A stretch of DNA of 36,270 nt from Candidatus Gastranaerophilales bacterium (lineage in GTDB: Bacteria; Cyanobacteriota; Vampirovibrionia; Gastranaerophilales; Gastranaerophilaceae). Positions 21,112 to 29,574 of this stretch are shown in pieces. Made by a program: the position numbers and the translations under genes. Location of the stretch: NCBI GenBank assembly GCA_944326515.1, contig CALVEI010000017.1, positions 1 to 36,270 of the forward strand, given 5' to 3'. Within the stretch, counting starts at the first letter, position 1. Each line of letters starts with the position of its first letter. The notes beneath the pieces are model-generated. The model made no database searches. It worked only from the letters and a program-made list of their open reading frames with translations, and was not told the origin of the DNA.

Positions 21112-24100
21112 ATGCTTATACAAGGCAGCTGCAAAAGCGACAGAACAAACCTACTAATACAAAAATATACGGATTTGCTCAACTGTGGTATTGAGGCAAA
21201 CAAAATTCTTGTGCTTGTACAAAACTCCTACAAAAAAAATCAATTCATTACAGAAGTAAAAAAACTACTAAAAATTCAGCATTACGAAGAGCCTCAAATA
21301 CACACATTTTACGGTTTAATTTACAACACAATACTAAATTTTTGGCCTATAATCCAAGACACAATAAACATTGGAGAAAACGTTGTTACTCCAAATCTTA
21401 CGGGTCTTGAAATTTCGCAATTTTTCTTTAGACAAGCAGTTAAAGAAGCAGGTTTTAGCGATTATAACTCAAAGATAAACTTAATCCACCAGATGTTTAG
21501 AAGGTACTCGCTTATAGTAAATAACGTCCTTTCTGAACAAGATGTGGAAAAACGTTCACAAATACTTAAAGAAGTATTTGCCACAGACGCAAAATCAGCA
21601 ATAGAAAATTACAAGAAAAAGACTCTCGAATACAGAACATTTGACTATATAAGACAAGCTGCAGTATTTAGTTATATCTACAAAAAGCATAAATGTTTTA
21701 AAGATATACAATACCTTATAATTGACGATACAGACGAAATAACAACACTTGAACTGGATTTTATAAAGAGCATAAAACCACAACTTAAAGAAGCTATTAT
21801 AGGATATGACAAATACGGTTCAAGCAGAATAGGTTTTCTAAACACTGACACTCAAGCTGTTAAAGAAATTGAAAAAACTTTTTCAAACGAAGAAACAGTT
21901 AACCTTGATAACATAGATAATTTCACACCACAAGTAGAACACAATGACTGCTCAAGACGTTTGGAAATGTTAAATAAAACTGCTGAGAAAATATCAGAAC
22001 TTATAAAAAACGGAACATCACCGGATGAAATAGCTATAATAACACCAATTATTGACACAACATTAAAATTCACATTTGAAGAAGCATTTTTACCGCAAAA
22101 TATAAAAATTTCATATTATTCCGGTAGCGAAAAGCTTAAAGATACTCCGCTAGTAAAAAACATACTAACCGTTTTAAATATATCTTTAGGTGTAGAAACA
22201 GATGTTTTTAGCGTAAGGTCTGTACTAAACAATATGCTAAAAATCCCTGTAAAGTATTGCATGCCTGTCATCGTGAAATATAAAGAAACAGGTTCAATAC
22301 AAGCTACAGAATTTGAAAACCCGATTTATACAGAAGTAATAAAAAGGCTTAAAGGGACAATAGACCAAATAACAAACGACCAAATAACCTTGTCTCAAAA
22401 GACATTTGAGATATACAAAAACCTTGTCAATCCAAACTTTGATGAATTTTACCAGCTTGAAAAAGTGAACTTTTTTATAAAACAAATACAAGACTTTGAA
22501 AATGTTTTTCACAACCAAAAATGCAACCAAGCATTACAAAAAGCAATCTTAAACCAGCTTGAAAACTCAATTATATCTGAAAACCCTGCTTTTGCCCCCG
22601 AAATAGAAGAAAAATCAATAATTGTTGCAACAGCACAAAAAATAATAGATTTTTCACTAAAAACAAAATACCAATTTTGGCTTGATATAAGTTCCTCCGA
22701 GTGGACAAAAGAGGATATGGGTACTCTTTATAATGCGTGGGTGTTTCAAAAGTCTTGGAATAAAGAAGAATTTACTTATGAAGACAGTATTGAACTTGCA
22801 AAACTAAAGACAAAAAAACAGTTACGCAAACTTTCTTTATTAGCGCAAGAGAAAATTTATGCGGACTCTAGCCTTTTTGATACAGAAGGTAATGAAAACT
22901 TTGGCGGCATAGAAGAATACATACTGCCTAAAGAAAAACAAACAAAAGACTTTGATTTTAAATTCACCCCCCGTGACGACCAAAAGCCTGTTCTGGAATA
23001 TAAATCCGGGAATATGGCTATATCTGCAGTGCCGGGAGCGGGAAAAACAACAATACTTCTTGCACTGATAATAAAACTTCTATCTGACGGGGTACAAAGT
23101 GACAACATATTTGTTATGACATATATGGATTCAGCAGCCAAAAACTTCAAAGAAAGGATTAAAAAAGCTTGTCCAAACCTTGAAAAAATGCCTAATATTT
23201 CGACAATCCACGGACTTGCATTAAGAATTTTAAAAGAGAACTCAAATTATCTTAGAGTTGGGCTTAATGCTGATTTTGAGGTTTGTGACGACAACCTCAG
23301 ACAAAAAATCATTAGAGAAATTATGTCAAAACTTCAAATTGACCAAAACGAGTTTGATCGCTATGACAAAGCTATATCAGCACTAAAACTTTCTGACGTA
23401 AAAGAAATCCCCTACGTCAAAGACAAGGAAATCTTTCTTTTCATAAAATTTTACAACGCCTATAACAACTACCTAAAAAGCAGAAACATTATAGACTACG
23501 ATGATATGCTTTCATATTGCGTAAAAATCCTTGAAGAAAACAAAGACATAGCAGAATATTACCAAGATATCTGTCACTACGTTATAGAAGACGAGGCTCA
23601 AGATTCATCTGTTATTCAACAAAAACTACTGTCACTTTTATGCAAAAAGCATAAAAACCTCATTCGCTGTGGAGATATAAACCAAGCAATCACAACAACT
23701 TTTACAAACGCAGACTTGGAAGGGTTTAAAACATTCATATCAAACAGCAACAACGTATCAATGAACCGTTCTCAAAGATGTTCAAAAGATGTTTATCAAA
23801 CAGCAAACAAACTTATAGACTTTTCTAAAACTGACGAAAACCTAAAAAATTCGTTTTTCGACATAAAAATGAACGAAGTTACAGGAAAAAACCCTGTAGT
23901 TACTAACGGATTAAATGTACAAACATTCGACAATTACACAGAAGAAAATAACTACCTTCTGGAACAAATAAGAAATATATTTAATAAAGACCCAAAAGCA
24001 AGTATCGCTATACTTGTAAGGAACAACTACATAATTGAGGAGTATTCTCAATTTTTAGGACAATACGGTTACAACGTAATAACAAAAAGCGACTGTCTTA

Positions 24101-24936
24101 AAAACCAACCTGTGTTTGCGTTAATACTTGCTCTGCTAAAATTCTGCTCTCACCCTTGGAATAATGAAACAGTCTTAAACGTAGCGGAAACAATTAAACA
24201 ACAAAAGATTTTAAAAATAAAAAACGAAGATTTACAGTTTATAAAAGATTTAAAAACACCTTTTATATTGCAAAAAGCAGACGAAACAGAAAGTTCACAA
24301 CTATCACAACTGTTGTGGGACTTAAACTACTGGCTTGAAAACACACATCTTACAATAGAAGAAACTGTAGTAAAAATGGGAAATTATTACTACAACACAG
24401 ATGTAGAAAAATCAAATATCTACATAATAGCTACACTGCTAAAGAGAATGGAAAGCCAATACAAAACACACGATATCTTACTTGAAAGAATTGAAGAGCT
24501 TTCTCAACGTCCTATACTTAGCAAATTCAAATTCTTTACAGATACAGAAGAAAAGTCAGACCTTAAAGAATCTTCTATACAAATAATGACATACCACAAA
24601 TCAAAAGGTGACGAATTTGATTATGTGTTTATCCCAGGACTAAGCGAAGAAATACTGCCAATAGACTTAAATCAAATAAAAATTAAATCAAAAGAGCGTT
24701 TTATAGAAGCAGTAAAAAGCTTAAACTTAAAATACAAGAAAAAAGATGAGCAAGAGCTTAAACAATTTATTGCACAAGAAAACTTAAGACTTTTCTACGT
24801 AGCAATAACAAGAGCCAAGAAGAAACTCTACATAAGCTGTGCTAAAAAATACAAAAAATATTCAAGACTAAAAGATACCCAAATTTCGCTTTTGTTCGAC
24901 AATATGCTTTTAGGAGAAAAAAATGCAAACAAATAA
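21112..24936 (+). CDS. Tandem UvrD-type helicase: inactive N-terminal half fused to active C-terminal half
   Basis: 1274 residues. The C-terminal half is a complete superfamily 1 helicase: motif I VPGAGKTT (K645), DEDEAQD-like motif II IEDEAQDSS (about 825-833), motif V TYHKSKGDEFDYVF (1160-1173) and motif VI LFYVAITRAKKKL (R1234). The N-terminal half (about 1-600) repeats the same order in degenerate form: GSCKSDRT (5-12) in place of GxxGxGKT, IIDDTDEITTLE (203-214) in place of DDAQD, an FYGLIYNTIL segment, IAIITP and SYYSGSEKLKDTPLV. So it seems a dead helicase joined to a live one. In AddAB the dead helicase is in AddB and the live one in AddA. The ATG at 21112 follows GGAGAG, and the nuclease gene overlaps its end by 14 bp. 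Confidence 0.85.
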   Translation: MLIQGSCKSDRTNLLIQKYTDLLNCGIEANKILVLVQNSYKKNQFITEVKKLLKIQHYEEPQIHTFYGLIYNTILNFWPIIQDTINIGENVVTPNLTGLEISQFFFRQAVKEAGFSDYNSKINLIHQMFRRYSLIVNNVLSEQDVEKRSQILKEVFATDAKSAIENYKKKTLEYRTFDYIRQAAVFSYIYKKHKCFKDIQYLIIDDTDEITTLELDFIKSIKPQLKEAIIGYDKYGSSRIGFLNTDTQAVKEIEKTFSNEETVNLDNIDNFTPQVEHNDCSRRLEMLNKTAEKISELIKNGTSPDEIAIITPIIDTTLKFTFEEAFLPQNIKISYYSGSEKLKDTPLVKNILTVLNISLGVETDVFSVRSVLNNMLKIPVKYCMPVIVKYKETGSIQATEFENPIYTEVIKRLKGTIDQITNDQITLSQKTFEIYKNLVNPNFDEFYQLEKVNFFIKQIQDFENVFHNQKCNQALQKAILNQLENSIISENPAFAPEIEEKSIIVATAQKIIDFSLKTKYQFWLDISSSEWTKEDMGTLYNAWVFQKSWNKEEFTYEDSIELAKLKTKKQLRKLSLLAQEKIYADSSLFDTEGNENFGGIEEYILPKEKQTKDFDFKFTPRDDQKPVLEYKSGNMAISAVPGAGKTTILLALIIKLLSDGVQSDNIFVMTYMDSAAKNFKERIKKACPNLEKMPNISTIHGLALRILKENSNYLRVGLNADFEVCDDNLRQKIIREIMSKLQIDQNEFDRYDKAISALKLSDVKEIPYVKDKEIFLFIKFYNAYNNYLKSRNIIDYDDMLSYCVKILEENKDIAEYYQDICHYVIEDEAQDSSVIQQKLLSLLCKKHKNLIRCGDINQAITTTFTNADLEGFKTFISNSNNVSMNRSQRCSKDVYQTANKLIDFSKTDENLKNSFFDIKMNEVTGKNPVVTNGLNVQTFDNYTEENNYLLEQIRNIFNKDPKASIAILVRNNYIIEEYSQFLGQYGYNVITKSDCLKNQPVFALILALLKFCSHPWNNETVLNVAETIKQQKILKIKNEDLQFIKDLKTPFILQKADETESSQLSQLLWDLNYWLENTHLTIEETVVKMGNYYYNTDVEKSNIYIIATLLKRMESQYKTHDILLERIEELSQRPILSKFKFFTDTEEKSDLKESSIQIMTYHKSKGDEFDYVFIPGLSEEILPIDLNQIKIKSKERFIEAVKSLNLKYKKKDEQELKQFIAQENLRLFYVAITRAKKKLYISCAKKYKKYSRLKDTQISLLFDNMLLGEKNANK

Positions 24937-25591
24937 TGCACAAACATATACACTCTCAAAATTGCAAATGTATGACGAATGCCCTCAAAAGTACAAGTTA
25001 TGCTACATAGATAAAGTACATATTGCAGAGCTAAACACTCAAACACAAACAGGTAATAACCTGCATAATATAATAAATTATTACCTCAAAGGAATGGATG
25101 TAACAAAGCTTATCGAAGCACTTCCACCAAGCGATAAAGCTCTGTGGCACAATTTTAAAACTAACGAGATAAAAAACTACAAAATAGTTGAAAGTGAATA
25201 CGCCTTCAACTTAAAGATTGATGAGCATTGGCTAACGGGAAGAATCGATGCCCTTTTTGAATTTGACGGAAACTATATAATTTTAGACTGGAAAACAGGC
25301 TCAAGCTTTACCCCCGAAAATGTGAAATTTCAAACCAAGTTCTATCTTGTATGCTTGTATGAAATATTAAAACTTAAAAAGCTTATCAACACCCCAGAAG
25401 AACTTTCAATGCAATATCTAAACCTTGCAACTAACAGTAAAATAAAAATACCTTTTGATAGTGATTTATACATAAACTACAAAAAAGAAATTTTAGAAAT
25501 AATAAGAAAAATCAACAAAAGTACAACATACTTTTGCAACAAAAAAGACACATGCAAATATTGCAAATACTATAGGGCCTGTCCGTTTTAA
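24923..25591 (+). CDS. PD-(D/E)XK nuclease with Fe-S cysteine motif (AddB/Cas4-like)
   Basis: A 222-residue nuclease of the PDDEXK_1 superfamily. The N-terminus LSKLQMYDECPQKYKL is the RecB-nuclease start motif. The metal and catalytic residues are H48, D109 in GRIDALFEFDGN, D122 and K124 in IILDWKTG, and the QxxxY motif is Q137-Y141. Four cysteines C20 and C212-x2-C215-x5-C221 match the spacing of the iron-sulfur staple of AddB (and of Cas4). The ATG at 24923 has AGGAG upstream and overlaps the helicase gene by 14 bp, so the two are made together. A Cas4 role is unlikely because there is no CRISPR array or cas gene. It lacks its own helicase domain, so it is much shorter than AddB. Confidence 0.85.
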   Translation: MQTNNAQTYTLSKLQMYDECPQKYKLCYIDKVHIAELNTQTQTGNNLHNIINYYLKGMDVTKLIEALPPSDKALWHNFKTNEIKNYKIVESEYAFNLKIDEHWLTGRIDALFEFDGNYIILDWKTGSSFTPENVKFQTKFYLVCLYEILKLKKLINTPEELSMQYLNLATNSKIKIPFDSDLYINYKKEILEIIRKINKSTTYFCNKKDTCKYCKYYRACPF

Positions 25592-25630: not shown

Positions 25631-26278
25631 ATGCAAACTTTGTCTAATATATCTTTTAAATCAAGAAACAGCCTCGTAAAAGACGCAGGATTGGTGTGTA
25701 GAAAAGTAAGAACAGCATTCCCTTACGTTTCCCACGCAAAAGCTGCTCACGAAGCAAGCCCTGAAATATTAAAAAATAAAGATATAGTAAACTTTATCCT
25801 CAAAAGAGAAAAAACACTAAAAGAATACAGAGAAGACCAAAGACATATCCAAAAACCTTTCAACCGCTACAAAGAAATACTATACTGCGCAATAAAAGAA
25901 AAACTTGCTGCCTGCTATGACCTTTCTGTACTGACAGAACTTGTTTTACGTCTCAACGGAATCAAAAACTGTACAAAAGTGTCTCTAACTAATGCAGAAG
26001 GAAAACTTCTTAACCATAGTGCAGTAATTGTAAAAACTAGCAACAACCCTAAAAAAAATATAATCATTGACCCTTGGTTGCAAGACTGCGGATTGGAATC
26101 AGAAATGCTCACAAAATACAAAAGTATTTATGCGAAATATTTCAGAAAATTGTCCCCAAATGACAAAATAGAGCTGATACTTCGCCCGCAAGAAAAGCTA
26201 TCACAAGAAGAAATTAATTATTTTAAAGAAAAATATCCAGAACTAATAATAAACAAAGCTCTTTTCACAAAAGCATAA
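25631..26278 (+). CDS. Candidate transglutaminase-like Cys-His-Asp protein
   Basis: A 215-residue protein that I cannot place in a named family. The spacing of C95 (KLAACYDLSVLTELVLRLNG), H129 (GKLLNHSAVIVK) and D147 (NIIIDPWLQDCG) is that of the Cys-His-Asp triad of transglutaminase/papain-like folds, with a hydrophobic helix after Cys and a beta strand before Asp. There is no signal peptide; NISFKSRNS near the start is a phrase seen in several short proteins of this lineage. No clear ribosome site precedes the ATG at 25631, and it starts 39 nt after the nuclease gene, so it may be translated by read-through coupling. A role with the helicase-nuclease pair is possible but unproven. Confidence 0.5.
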   Translation: MQTLSNISFKSRNSLVKDAGLVCRKVRTAFPYVSHAKAAHEASPEILKNKDIVNFILKREKTLKEYREDQRHIQKPFNRYKEILYCAIKEKLAACYDLSVLTELVLRLNGIKNCTKVSLTNAEGKLLNHSAVIVKTSNNPKKNIIIDPWLQDCGLESEMLTKYKSIYAKYFRKLSPNDKIELILRPQEKLSQEEINYFKEKYPELIINKALFTKA

Positions 26279-26340: not shown

Positions 26341-26910
26341 CTAATCCAAGTAGAATGCAGTAATAACTTTGTGAGATTCTTCCGCATACTCAATAGCTTT
26401 GTGCAAAGTATTTGAAGTATGTGACAAGAAACATATCAACTGCTGACAGTCATCGATAATCTCTCTGTTACAAATGCGGCTGGCATCTGCAAGAGTCATC
26501 ATAGCTCTGTCAGAGTGTTCAATAATGTTAGGAACACCAATCAACTGATCTTGTACGTCAGAAGGTTGCTGACCAATAGTCTGAGGTAAAATAACTTTCA
26601 ATTTATCAGGGTTAGACTTCATTGCCCCTCTGATAGTTGCAGCGTTAGTACCTGAAGAACCACCTGACGTAATGATTGTATTACCTTGAGCAACCAGTGC
26701 ATAAGATAACGTTTCAATAATTTGTTGGTGAGTAATCGGCAAATTACGACTGCCGATAATAGCAATTCTCTTAGCAGACTGTTGTATCGTAGCAAGCTCC
26801 ATAGCAAGCTGATCTACAGTGTTTGCTTCATCCTCAGGAACCTTATCAAGGTCATCTGTAGGAACCATAATCGTAGGTTGTTCTTGTTTTTCTTGGTTTT
26901 CGTCTGACAT
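26341..26910 (-). CDS. DprA/SLOG-type Rossmann protein
   Basis: A 189-residue protein. After an acidic N-terminus of about 45 residues it has the Rossmann nucleotide or DNA site of DprA/SLOG proteins: RIAIIGSRNLPITHQQII (48-65), NTIITSGGSSGTNAATIRGA (77-96), KVILPQTIGQQPSDVQ and CQQLICFLSHTSNTL. It is about half the size of full DprA and lacks the winged helix. Cyanobacteria carry similar short proteins annotated as DNA recombination mediator A. Full DprA loads RecA during DNA uptake, but for a short relative nucleotide-ligand sensing is also possible. It is transcribed alone and divergent from pcrA. ATG at 26908-26910. Confidence 0.7.
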   Translation of the reverse strand: MSDENQEKQEQPTIMVPTDDLDKVPEDEANTVDQLAMELATIQQSAKRIAIIGSRNLPITHQQIIETLSYALVAQGNTIITSGGSSGTNAATIRGAMKSNPDKLKVILPQTIGQQPSDVQDQLIGVPNIIEHSDRAMMTLADASRICNREIIDDCQQLICFLSHTSNTLHKAIEYAEESHKVITAFYLD

Positions 26911-27036: not shown

Positions 27037-29574
27037 TTGGAAGAATTACTTAAAAGTCTTAATGACGAACAAAGGGCAGCTGTTGTAGAAAAAGAAGGTG
27101 CATTGCTTGTACTGGCAGGTGCAGGTAGCGGCAAAACCAAAGTGTTAACTACACGTATAGTTAACCTTGTAAAATCAGGTGTAAACCCATATAAAATCCT
27201 CGCCGTTACATTTACAAACAAAGCGGCAAAAGAAATGCGCGAACGTCTTTCTAAAATGATAGGCGAAGATGTCGTAAAAAAAATGTGGGTAGGTACTTTC
27301 CACAACATCTGCGGCAGAATACTCCGTTTTGATATAGAAAACTACAAAAGCCCCGACGGAAGAAAATGGGATAACAACTACGTTATCTATGATGAAACAG
27401 ATACTAATACCATCATAAAAAATGCAATAAAAAAATTAAATATTGATGAAAAAACCTTTGCACCAAAACTTGTTAAAGCAGCGATAAGCAACGCTAAAAG
27501 CAAAATGCAAGACGCTTATACATTTGCAACAAGAGCAAGAGATTACAGAAGCCAAAAAATCTCAGAAATATACTACGAGTACGAAAAACAACTTCTTGCA
27601 AACAACGCCATAGACTTTGATGATATGCTTCTTTTAACAGTGAACCTGCTTTCAACAAACGAAGAAGTAAGAAACAAATACCACGAAAGATTTTCACACA
27701 TATTGGTTGATGAGTTTCAAGATACAAACATAAGCCAATATATGCTAATAAGACACCTATACTCTAACGGAAAAACAGACGAAGAGCTTAAAGGCAGAAG
27801 CTTATGTGTTGTAGGTGATGTTGACCAATCTATTTACAGTTGGCGTGGTGCGGATTACAAAATCATTTTGAACTTCCAAACTGATTACAAAAATGCAAAA
27901 CTGATAAAACTTGAAAAAAACTATCGTTCAGTTGGTACAATTTTAGATGCAGCAAACGCAATTATTGTAAACAACACTGAACGTGTAAGCAAAAACTTGT
28001 ATTCGACAAAAGGTCAAGGCGAAAAAATTGATATTTATGAAGCTCAAGACGAATCCGGAGAAGCTTACTACATAGCTAACCGTATAAAACAATACGCAAG
28101 AAATCTCAATGACTATGCTGTTTTATACAGAACGAACTCTCAATCACGTGCAATAGAAGAAGCCTTAATATCACAAGGAATTTCTTACAGAATGGTAGGA
28201 GGCCTGAAATTCTACGACCGTAAAGAAATTAAAGACCTTATCGCATACTTAAAGCTTATCTACAACAGACACGATTCACAAAGTTTAAAAAGAATAATTA
28301 ACGTCCCCAAACGTTCAATAGGGGATACAACAGTTAAAAAATTGCAAGAAATAGCCTCTCAGATGGATTACTCCGTGTATGAAGTAATCGAAAACATCGA
28401 AGAATACGATGATTTTTCTGCGGGAGTTAAAGCAAAACTCAAAAATTTTGTCGAGCTTATAGACAAACTCGATAAAAACAGAACATCGTTGTCATTGCCT
28501 GAGTTTATTGCATTTATAATTGAAGAAACAGGCTATCTTGCAGAACTGAAACAGGAAGACACCGAAGAATCACAATCTCGTATAGAAAACCTTCAAGAGC
28601 TTGTAAATGTTGCTCGAGACTTTTCTGCAGAGGATGAGACAAATATTCTCGGTGAATTCCTTGCTCAGGTTGCATTGGTCAGTGACCTTGACGAAACACC
28701 TGATGCAGACAATGCTGTTACTTTAATGACACTACACGCAGCTAAGGGGCTTGAGTTCGAAACCGTATTCCTTGCAGGTTTGGAAGAAGGTATTTTCCCT
28801 CACAGCCGTTCTTTAAACAACAACACAGAGATGGAAGAAGAAAGACGTCTTATGTATGTTGGAGTAACACGTACAAAACAAAAATTGTACATCACTTACG
28901 CTAAAAGACGCCAAATGTGGGGAGAAACAAGATACTATACCCCAAGCAGATTTTTAGAAGAAATTCCATACAACCTGACAAACAGAAATACATCAGAAGA
29001 AAACAGCTACAGCTCAGGTAGAAGCAGCACATTCAGCCAAGCTGTCAACAAAATTAAATCACAAGCAAAAACAAACAGCTCTGGTTATGTGGAAAAAACA
29101 ACAAGCTTTGGCAAAGGTTTTATCGCACCTTCTGCCGGTCTTACAAACACACAAAGAATAAGCAAGGTTGTAAAGAAAAAACCTGTCTATAACGGAGAAA
29201 ACAACTATAGTCAAACAGCATATAAAGCACCTCAACAACCTAAGCCAAACAACTTTGTAAAAAGAGAAGCGTTTGTTGTTAAAAATGCTCAAAACCAAGC
29301 AAAAGACGAAGAAAGAATTAAAAAAATTCTTGAAGACAACCCTATAAAACGAATGCTTGAAGAAAAGAAAGCTAAAGAAGCTGCACTACAAGCAGCACAA
29401 GAAGAATCTTCATCAGGTTTCAAACAAGGTGACAGAGTCTTTCACGAAAAATTCGGTATAGGTCACATTGATGAAATAAAACAAATAGGTTCATCATCAA
29501 TGTATGTAATAGATTTTGGAAAGCAAGGCAAAAAAGCAGTAGATGCTCTTTATGCAAATTTAAAGAAATTCTAA
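27037..29574 (+). CDS. pcrA: ATP-dependent DNA helicase PcrA/UvrD
   Basis: An 845-residue superfamily 1 helicase. It starts LLKSLNDEQRAAV (Q motif) with motif I LAGAGSGKT (K33), motif Ia TFTNKAAKEMRER, motif II VDEFQDTN, motif III VGDVDQSIYSWRGAD, motif IV NYRS, motif V TLHAAKGLEFETVF and motif VI YVGVTRTKQKL. The end, from about residue 790, has GDRVFHEKFGIGHIDEI ... VDALYANLKKF, the Tudor-like tail of PcrA that contacts RNA polymerase. Before it is a long Gln/Asn/Lys linker. It unwinds DNA in repair and removes stalled polymerase. The TTG start at 27037 has a strong GGGGGAG site (27028-27034). It is followed by a terminator. Confidence 0.97.
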   Translation: MEELLKSLNDEQRAAVVEKEGALLVLAGAGSGKTKVLTTRIVNLVKSGVNPYKILAVTFTNKAAKEMRERLSKMIGEDVVKKMWVGTFHNICGRILRFDIENYKSPDGRKWDNNYVIYDETDTNTIIKNAIKKLNIDEKTFAPKLVKAAISNAKSKMQDAYTFATRARDYRSQKISEIYYEYEKQLLANNAIDFDDMLLLTVNLLSTNEEVRNKYHERFSHILVDEFQDTNISQYMLIRHLYSNGKTDEELKGRSLCVVGDVDQSIYSWRGADYKIILNFQTDYKNAKLIKLEKNYRSVGTILDAANAIIVNNTERVSKNLYSTKGQGEKIDIYEAQDESGEAYYIANRIKQYARNLNDYAVLYRTNSQSRAIEEALISQGISYRMVGGLKFYDRKEIKDLIAYLKLIYNRHDSQSLKRIINVPKRSIGDTTVKKLQEIASQMDYSVYEVIENIEEYDDFSAGVKAKLKNFVELIDKLDKNRTSLSLPEFIAFIIEETGYLAELKQEDTEESQSRIENLQELVNVARDFSAEDETNILGEFLAQVALVSDLDETPDADNAVTLMTLHAAKGLEFETVFLAGLEEGIFPHSRSLNNNTEMEEERRLMYVGVTRTKQKLYITYAKRRQMWGETRYYTPSRFLEEIPYNLTNRNTSEENSYSSGRSSTFSQAVNKIKSQAKTNSSGYVEKTTSFGKGFIAPSAGLTNTQRISKVVKKKPVYNGENNYSQTAYKAPQQPKPNNFVKREAFVVKNAQNQAKDEERIKKILEDNPIKRMLEEKKAKEAALQAAQEESSSGFKQGDRVFHEKFGIGHIDEIKQIGSSSMYVIDFGKQGKKAVDALYANLKKF

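Follow-up and report, generated by a model that had tools for sequence, protein, structure and literature searches.

The gene analysed here lies on a 36,270-nt stretch of DNA (hereafter, the window) from the genome of a Candidatus Gastranaerophilales bacterium (2.2 Mb, 97.8% complete). It runs from 21112 to 24936 on the forward strand as an uninterrupted single ORF and encodes a chain of 1274 residues. A sequence-only reading had placed two sets of helicase motifs in this chain, one decayed and one intact, and both are present in the ORF, with GSCKSDRT at residue 5, DDTDE at 205, VPGAGKT at 640, EDEAQD at 826 and YVAITRA at 1229. The start of the next gene (24923–25591, +) overlaps the helicase stop by 14 nt; it encodes a stand-alone PD-(D/E)XK nuclease of the RecB/Cas4 type (222 aa; PF12705, E = 1.1e-18). 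Downstream of the nuclease, an ORF at 25631–26278 (+) shows a marginal transglutaminase-like match (DUF553). A short DprA-like fragment on the reverse strand (26341–26910; PF02481, 28.3 bits versus a cut-off of 29.6) sits between the nuclease region and a pcrA-like gene at 27037–29574.

The C-terminal half (residues 618–1274; 22963–24933, +) is a live UvrD-type SF1A helicase, matching PF00580 (E = 6.8e-48) and PF13361 (E = 1.9e-29) in standard fashion over residues 623–1245. Its motor motifs are all invariant or nearly so across the class, which bears out the earlier description of this half as intact. Walker A (23026–23049, +) reads AVPGAGKT in 62 of the 63 aligned rows and AVAGSGKT in the remaining one. 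Motif II, EDEAQD (23587–23604, +), is invariant in a further alignment (A4), as are the Y, V and R of motif VI, YVAITRA (24796–24816, +), with its T and A nearly so. An AlphaFold prediction covering residues 1–1200 (pLDDT 68, pTM 0.57) gave no reliable arrangement of the two halves relative to one another.

The N-terminal half (residues 1–617; 21112–22962, +) is far harder to place by sequence. Residues 1–613 alone gave no matches in Pfam or NCBIfam; the sequence alone returned nothing useful from the PDB, and a profile search of the PDB was marginal (Rep, E = 0.037). An AlphaFold model of residues 1–617, built with 16 relatives, has a pLDDT of 82.3 and a pTM of 0.82. Foldseek ranked UvrD as the best match to this model, followed by AddB (E about 1e-16) and AdnAB. 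VIA-align gave Z = 28.4 for UvrD/PcrA and matched both UvrD/Rep and AddB along residues 1–610, with model residue 1 falling on AddB residue 4 and UvrD residues 25–28; AdnA, AdnB and RecB structures were matched as well. Superposition on AddB, part of the AddAB comparison proposed in the sequence-only reading, yielded Z values of about 22 (22.7 among them) over 562–568 residues (AddB 4–694). Independently of structure, hhalign set the family profiles of the two halves in register (probability 98.8, E = 8.7e-17), Walker A on Walker A and DDxDE on EDEAQD, so a separate profile comparison also supports a helicase. Stand-alone homologues of the N-terminal half from other lineages clear the Pfam UvrD-helicase cut-off of 23 bits (34.6, 24 and 27.7 bits). 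Weak matches in one family (f8) were set aside, as these proteins turned out to be different UvrD-type helicases whose N-terminus carries a nuclease-like domain. Model and profiles confirm residues 1–610 as a predicted complete SF1A helicase fold, and the possibility that residues 1–600 have no such fold can be discarded.

Within this fold, the motifs that drive a motor deviate. Walker A reads GSCKSDRT (residues 5–12; 21124–21147, +), and motif II is DDTDE (residues 205–209; 21724–21738, +) in place of DExQD, DDxDE being conserved in the alignments. An intact Walker A occurs in 22 of 63 aligned rows: the window's own family has degenerate forms (GSCKSDRT and similar) except in one sequence, and other families of the order and class mostly have intact ones (GPPGTGKT, GPLGSGKT). 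Even N-terminal halves with an intact Walker A have DDxDE at motif II, TPQKxID in the motif V region and a motif VI region without TRA. Motifs V and VI, which we assigned by position and eye, appear degenerate throughout, and this half is predicted to be inactive as a helicase. Sequences with an intact Walker A already deviate at motifs II, V and VI, so loss of the motor appears to predate decay of the ATP site. The family looks like a pseudo-helicase in mid-decay, its ATP site being lost and its fold retained. There is precedent for this in AddB, which keeps the helicase fold with most or all motor motifs gone, and in AddB and RecC as inactivated helicases that read Chi; a 2A-domain ionic latch has been described in inactivated helicases (PMC4824097).

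To assess conservation of the fusion, we counted as near-full-length any homologue that matched over at least some 1,200 residues in one alignment. Such homologues were found in 46 of 59 relatives, and several further copies are fragmented or interrupted. This frequency exceeds what chance would allow for a dead-plus-live arrangement, and with the partner nuclease retained beside the fusion it answers the question of whether related genomes conserve it. On motifs, profiles and models together, we regard it as confirmed that the 1274-residue chain joins a predicted inactive SF1A helicase to a live one. Some copies vary in form. The fusion in genome G054 (L070:2728-6916) is split into two overlapping ORFs, reflecting a frameshift or an assembly error. 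A 1474-aa fusion (L069) carries an in-frame insertion in the dead half at residues of about 275–440, consisting of a DUF559 (restriction-like nuclease) domain between PSPLEGE/PLPQGE repeats, and is probably a mobile in-frame element. Fusions in three other genomes (G145, G204, G225) show a length gap alone, at a place similar to the L069 insertion.

The nuclease is a regular companion of the fused helicase. An HMM search placed it next to the helicase in 47 of the 58 loci that could be assessed, and most of these pairs overlap in their reading frames; four more loci run out at a contig edge. The two genes are unlinked in families f2 and f6 and in part of f3. All 50 nuclease sequences share seven residues (H48, E92, D109, D122, K124, Q137 and Y141), including those of the conserved catalytic segment D109...D122-W-K124 (25247–25297, +). 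Cysteines C20, C214 and C220 are retained in 48 of 50, which suggests that the protein probably bears an iron-sulfur cluster of the AddB/Cas4 type.

The same parts occur as separate genes outside the class. A search of the phylum with the N-terminal profile detected stand-alone proteins of about 650–750 aa in other classes, probably for the most part in photosynthetic cyanobacteria, judging from size and gene neighbours. Genomes with the stand-alone dead helicase also hold a stand-alone homologue of the C-terminal half (EDEAQDS signature) and a related nuclease, usually unlinked; in many of these genomes, each of the three genes lies apart from the others. In G293, the genes for the live helicase and nuclease overlap, and the dead helicase is encoded at another place in the genome. 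In four others (G281, G286, G295, G297), dead helicase, live helicase and nuclease are consecutive and mostly overlapping. Plasmid pSR56 of Salinibacter ruber M8 has the same order followed by recJ, the genes being annotated as hypothetical protein, ATP-dependent helicase, PD-(D/E)XK nuclease and recJ; the three proteins match the window family profiles with E values of 8e-48, 3e-101 and 1e-19. RecJ, confirmed by Pfam, is encoded on pSR56, and it is found downstream in G297, G286 and G295 and divergently beside the dead-helicase gene in G299. On a megaplasmid of Ilyobacter polytropus (L235:6989-8962), a lone full-length homologue of the dead helicase has an intact Walker A (GETGSGKT), and neither helicase nor nuclease was found beside it. 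All fused copies group in one clade (99/98) within one class, as would be expected if the fusion happened once, in that class's ancestor, and a split ancestor with later fusion here is well supported. Given that relatives carry the same three parts as neighbouring genes, the fused helicase and its partner nuclease look like an overlooked DNA-end-processing machine.

We consider that the gene probably encodes a fused version of a conserved machine for DNA-end processing with three components, a dead SF1A helicase, a live SF1A helicase and an Fe-S nuclease. The machine is best explained as a separate lineage of dual-helicase/nuclease enzymes, related to but distinct from RecBCD/AddAB. Its domain make-up, motor-motif loss, intact second motor, operon, split ancestor and fusion are observed or well supported; by analogy we infer complex formation, polarity, strand choice and a role in repair. 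As in AddAB and RecBCD, the C-terminal motor would reel in duplex DNA from its broken end, moving with 3'–5' polarity, and the dead half would hold and guide the displaced strand, possibly reading its sequence as AddB and RecC do at Chi. The Fe-S nuclease would cut the strand that emerges, so that RecA receives a single-stranded tail, with hand-over of the DNA to RecA and RecJ.

It is unlikely that these genes instead form an anti-phage defence module for the destruction of foreign linear DNA. In PADLOC, the C-terminal half is picked up by the GajB and DRT-helicase models and the nuclease by those for Cas4, and one copy of the system is plasmid-borne (pSR56). However, the AddA-like helicase of the same genome scores against the same models as high or higher, and hence we judged that nothing more than the generic cores (UvrD, and PDDEXK of the Cas4 kind) had matched, and dropped the PADLOC filing as a defence system. 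Unlike patchy defence systems, the fusion is near-universal and full-length across an order, and a scan of neighbouring genes showed none with a defence function. In Gabija, GajB lies beside GajA, an ATPase-TOPRIM nuclease, whereas the neighbours here are a PDDEXK nuclease and a transglutaminase-like protein, with no TOPRIM among the other window genes scanned.

The sequence-only reading had seen an AddAB-class machine fused into one chain. This stands insofar as one chain joins a dead SF1A helicase to a live one and the next gene encodes a nuclease of the AddB/Cas4 type; the evidence does not support the further step of equating the halves with AddB and AddA themselves. A true AddAB, with its two subunits fused and its nucleases lost or split off, would account for the order of dead helicase then live helicase, for an N-terminal half that begins at Walker A without UvrD's upstream residues, like AddB, and for the AddB-type nuclease in the adjoining gene. 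Yet AddB-like/AddA-like pairs coexist with the fusion in the same genomes. On contig C9 of the window's own genome (L074:4340-9361), a separate AddB-like gene (860 aa) with a C-terminal nuclease and no recognisable Walker A start is followed by an AddA-like helicase (812 aa) without a nuclease. This reduced AddAB pair is absent from most sampled Gastranaerophilales, and other genomes of the class have more conventional pairs (AddB about 1,000–1,130 aa). The trees also separate both halves from the AddA, AddB and PcrA that the same genomes encode. The C-terminal halves and their stand-alone homologues form one clade (100/99) apart from PcrA, AddA and the 1,000-aa helicase-nucleases, and the N-terminal halves and theirs form another (99/97) that is not nested in AddB, although AddB rows are long-branched. 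The N-terminal profile lies no nearer to AddB (E = 1.4e-11) than to PcrA (E = 8e-12). Among curated models, addA_Gpos fell below threshold (114 bits versus a cut-off of 707.65), and TIGR02773 (AddA/AddB) had no matches in the genome. Finally, split orthologues keep the nuclease as its own gene; other lineages hold the same parts as three genes, which points to an ancestral three-component system different from AddAB. We regard a true AddAB as quite improbable.

A third alternative, that the machine processes natural-transformation DNA or stalled replication forks and not double-strand breaks, strikes us as more doubtful still. The RecJ neighbours in the split operons would fit such a role, as would the DprA-like fragment and PcrA nearby in the window, but no conserved competence linkage was demonstrated and the DprA-like match falls under the Pfam cut-off. 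We also considered that a recent internal duplication of one helicase had produced both halves, which are each other's best profile match, but the tree sets the two families far apart.

The preferred reading, a distinct three-component lineage, can be set against the known machines part by part. Like AddAB, the system pairs one active SF1A module with an inactivated one (judged here from motifs), and it has a probable Fe-S PD-(D/E)XK nuclease of the AddB type and an N-terminal fold that aligns to AddB 4–694. In AddAB, however, the helicases are separate proteins, AddB carries its own C-terminal Fe-S nuclease and AddA bears another; here both helicases share one chain, the N-terminal half runs directly into the C-terminal half, the 1274-residue chain has no PF12705 match, and the nuclease is a separate gene with no second (AddA-type) nuclease. 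RecBCD and mycobacterial AdnAB likewise pair SF1 modules with a RecB-family nuclease. RecBCD combines a RecD-type 5'–3' motor with a nuclease-bearing RecB, whereas our N-terminal half has no RecD match and the chain is nuclease-free; AdnAB consists of two helicase-nuclease subunits, and neither half here carries a C-terminal nuclease. Tandem helicases with one dead copy in a single polypeptide are known from the TraI relaxase and Brr2, which differ from the fusion in helicase family (SF1B, SF2) and serve other tasks. In UvrD-Cas4 fusions, the nuclease is C-terminal to the UvrD helicase, not a separate 222-aa gene. Such fusions, and the operon of unfused UvrD and Cas4-like genes in Clostridiales, as set out in passages of PMC5704561, likewise tie a UvrD-type helicase to a PF12705 nuclease; those passages mention no dead helicase partner, unlike the system in the window, and the Clostridiales link may overlap in part with the three-part system. 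No description of the fusion or of the three-gene system was found in the open-access literature searched, which is weak evidence of novelty.

How central the machine is can be gauged from PF12705 genes in 42 near-complete Gastranaerophilaceae genomes, counted by hand, with adjacency taken from comparing positions. In 24 of the 42, the nuclease behind the fused helicase is the only such gene; 17 add a helicase-nuclease of about 1,010–1,040 aa, and in one genome there are long PF12705 proteins of other kinds. Since the same search gives matches in both E. coli and B. subtilis, it would have picked up RecBCD or AddAB, and neither an AddAB nor a RecBCD nuclease was found in those 24 genomes. As the system with the sole PF12705 gene there, the fused machine is the best candidate, on sequence grounds, for the resection enzyme of these bacteria. 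Single-chain proteins of about 1,020 aa joining a UvrD helicase to a PF12705 nuclease (L142:2438-5515, L143:2686-5745, L144:2951-6022) are patchy in the family. Each of the three sampled genomes that lack the fused machine (G029, G176, G247) has such a protein, as though either could stand in for the other. Many genomes also carry AddAB or the 1,000-aa helicase-nuclease, and there the fused machine may be redundant or have another job.

In cyanobacteria, recBCD is poorly conserved, with recC in marine strains only, and the route of double-strand-break resection is unclear for most (PMC5101192). We tentatively propose a separate RecBCD-class lineage of pseudo-helicase, motor helicase and Fe-S nuclease, ancestral to the cyanobacterial phylum and also present in Rhodothermota. 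It would have become fused in Vampirovibrionia, would be the sole RecB-type enzyme in many gut Gastranaerophilales and, in its scattered parts, may be an unrecognised end-resection enzyme in cyanobacteria without RecBCD. From the fusion and the split operon we would expect three proteins with separate loci in cyanobacterial genomes, one of them from a dead-helicase family that is invisible or just marginal in Pfam, to act as one complex.
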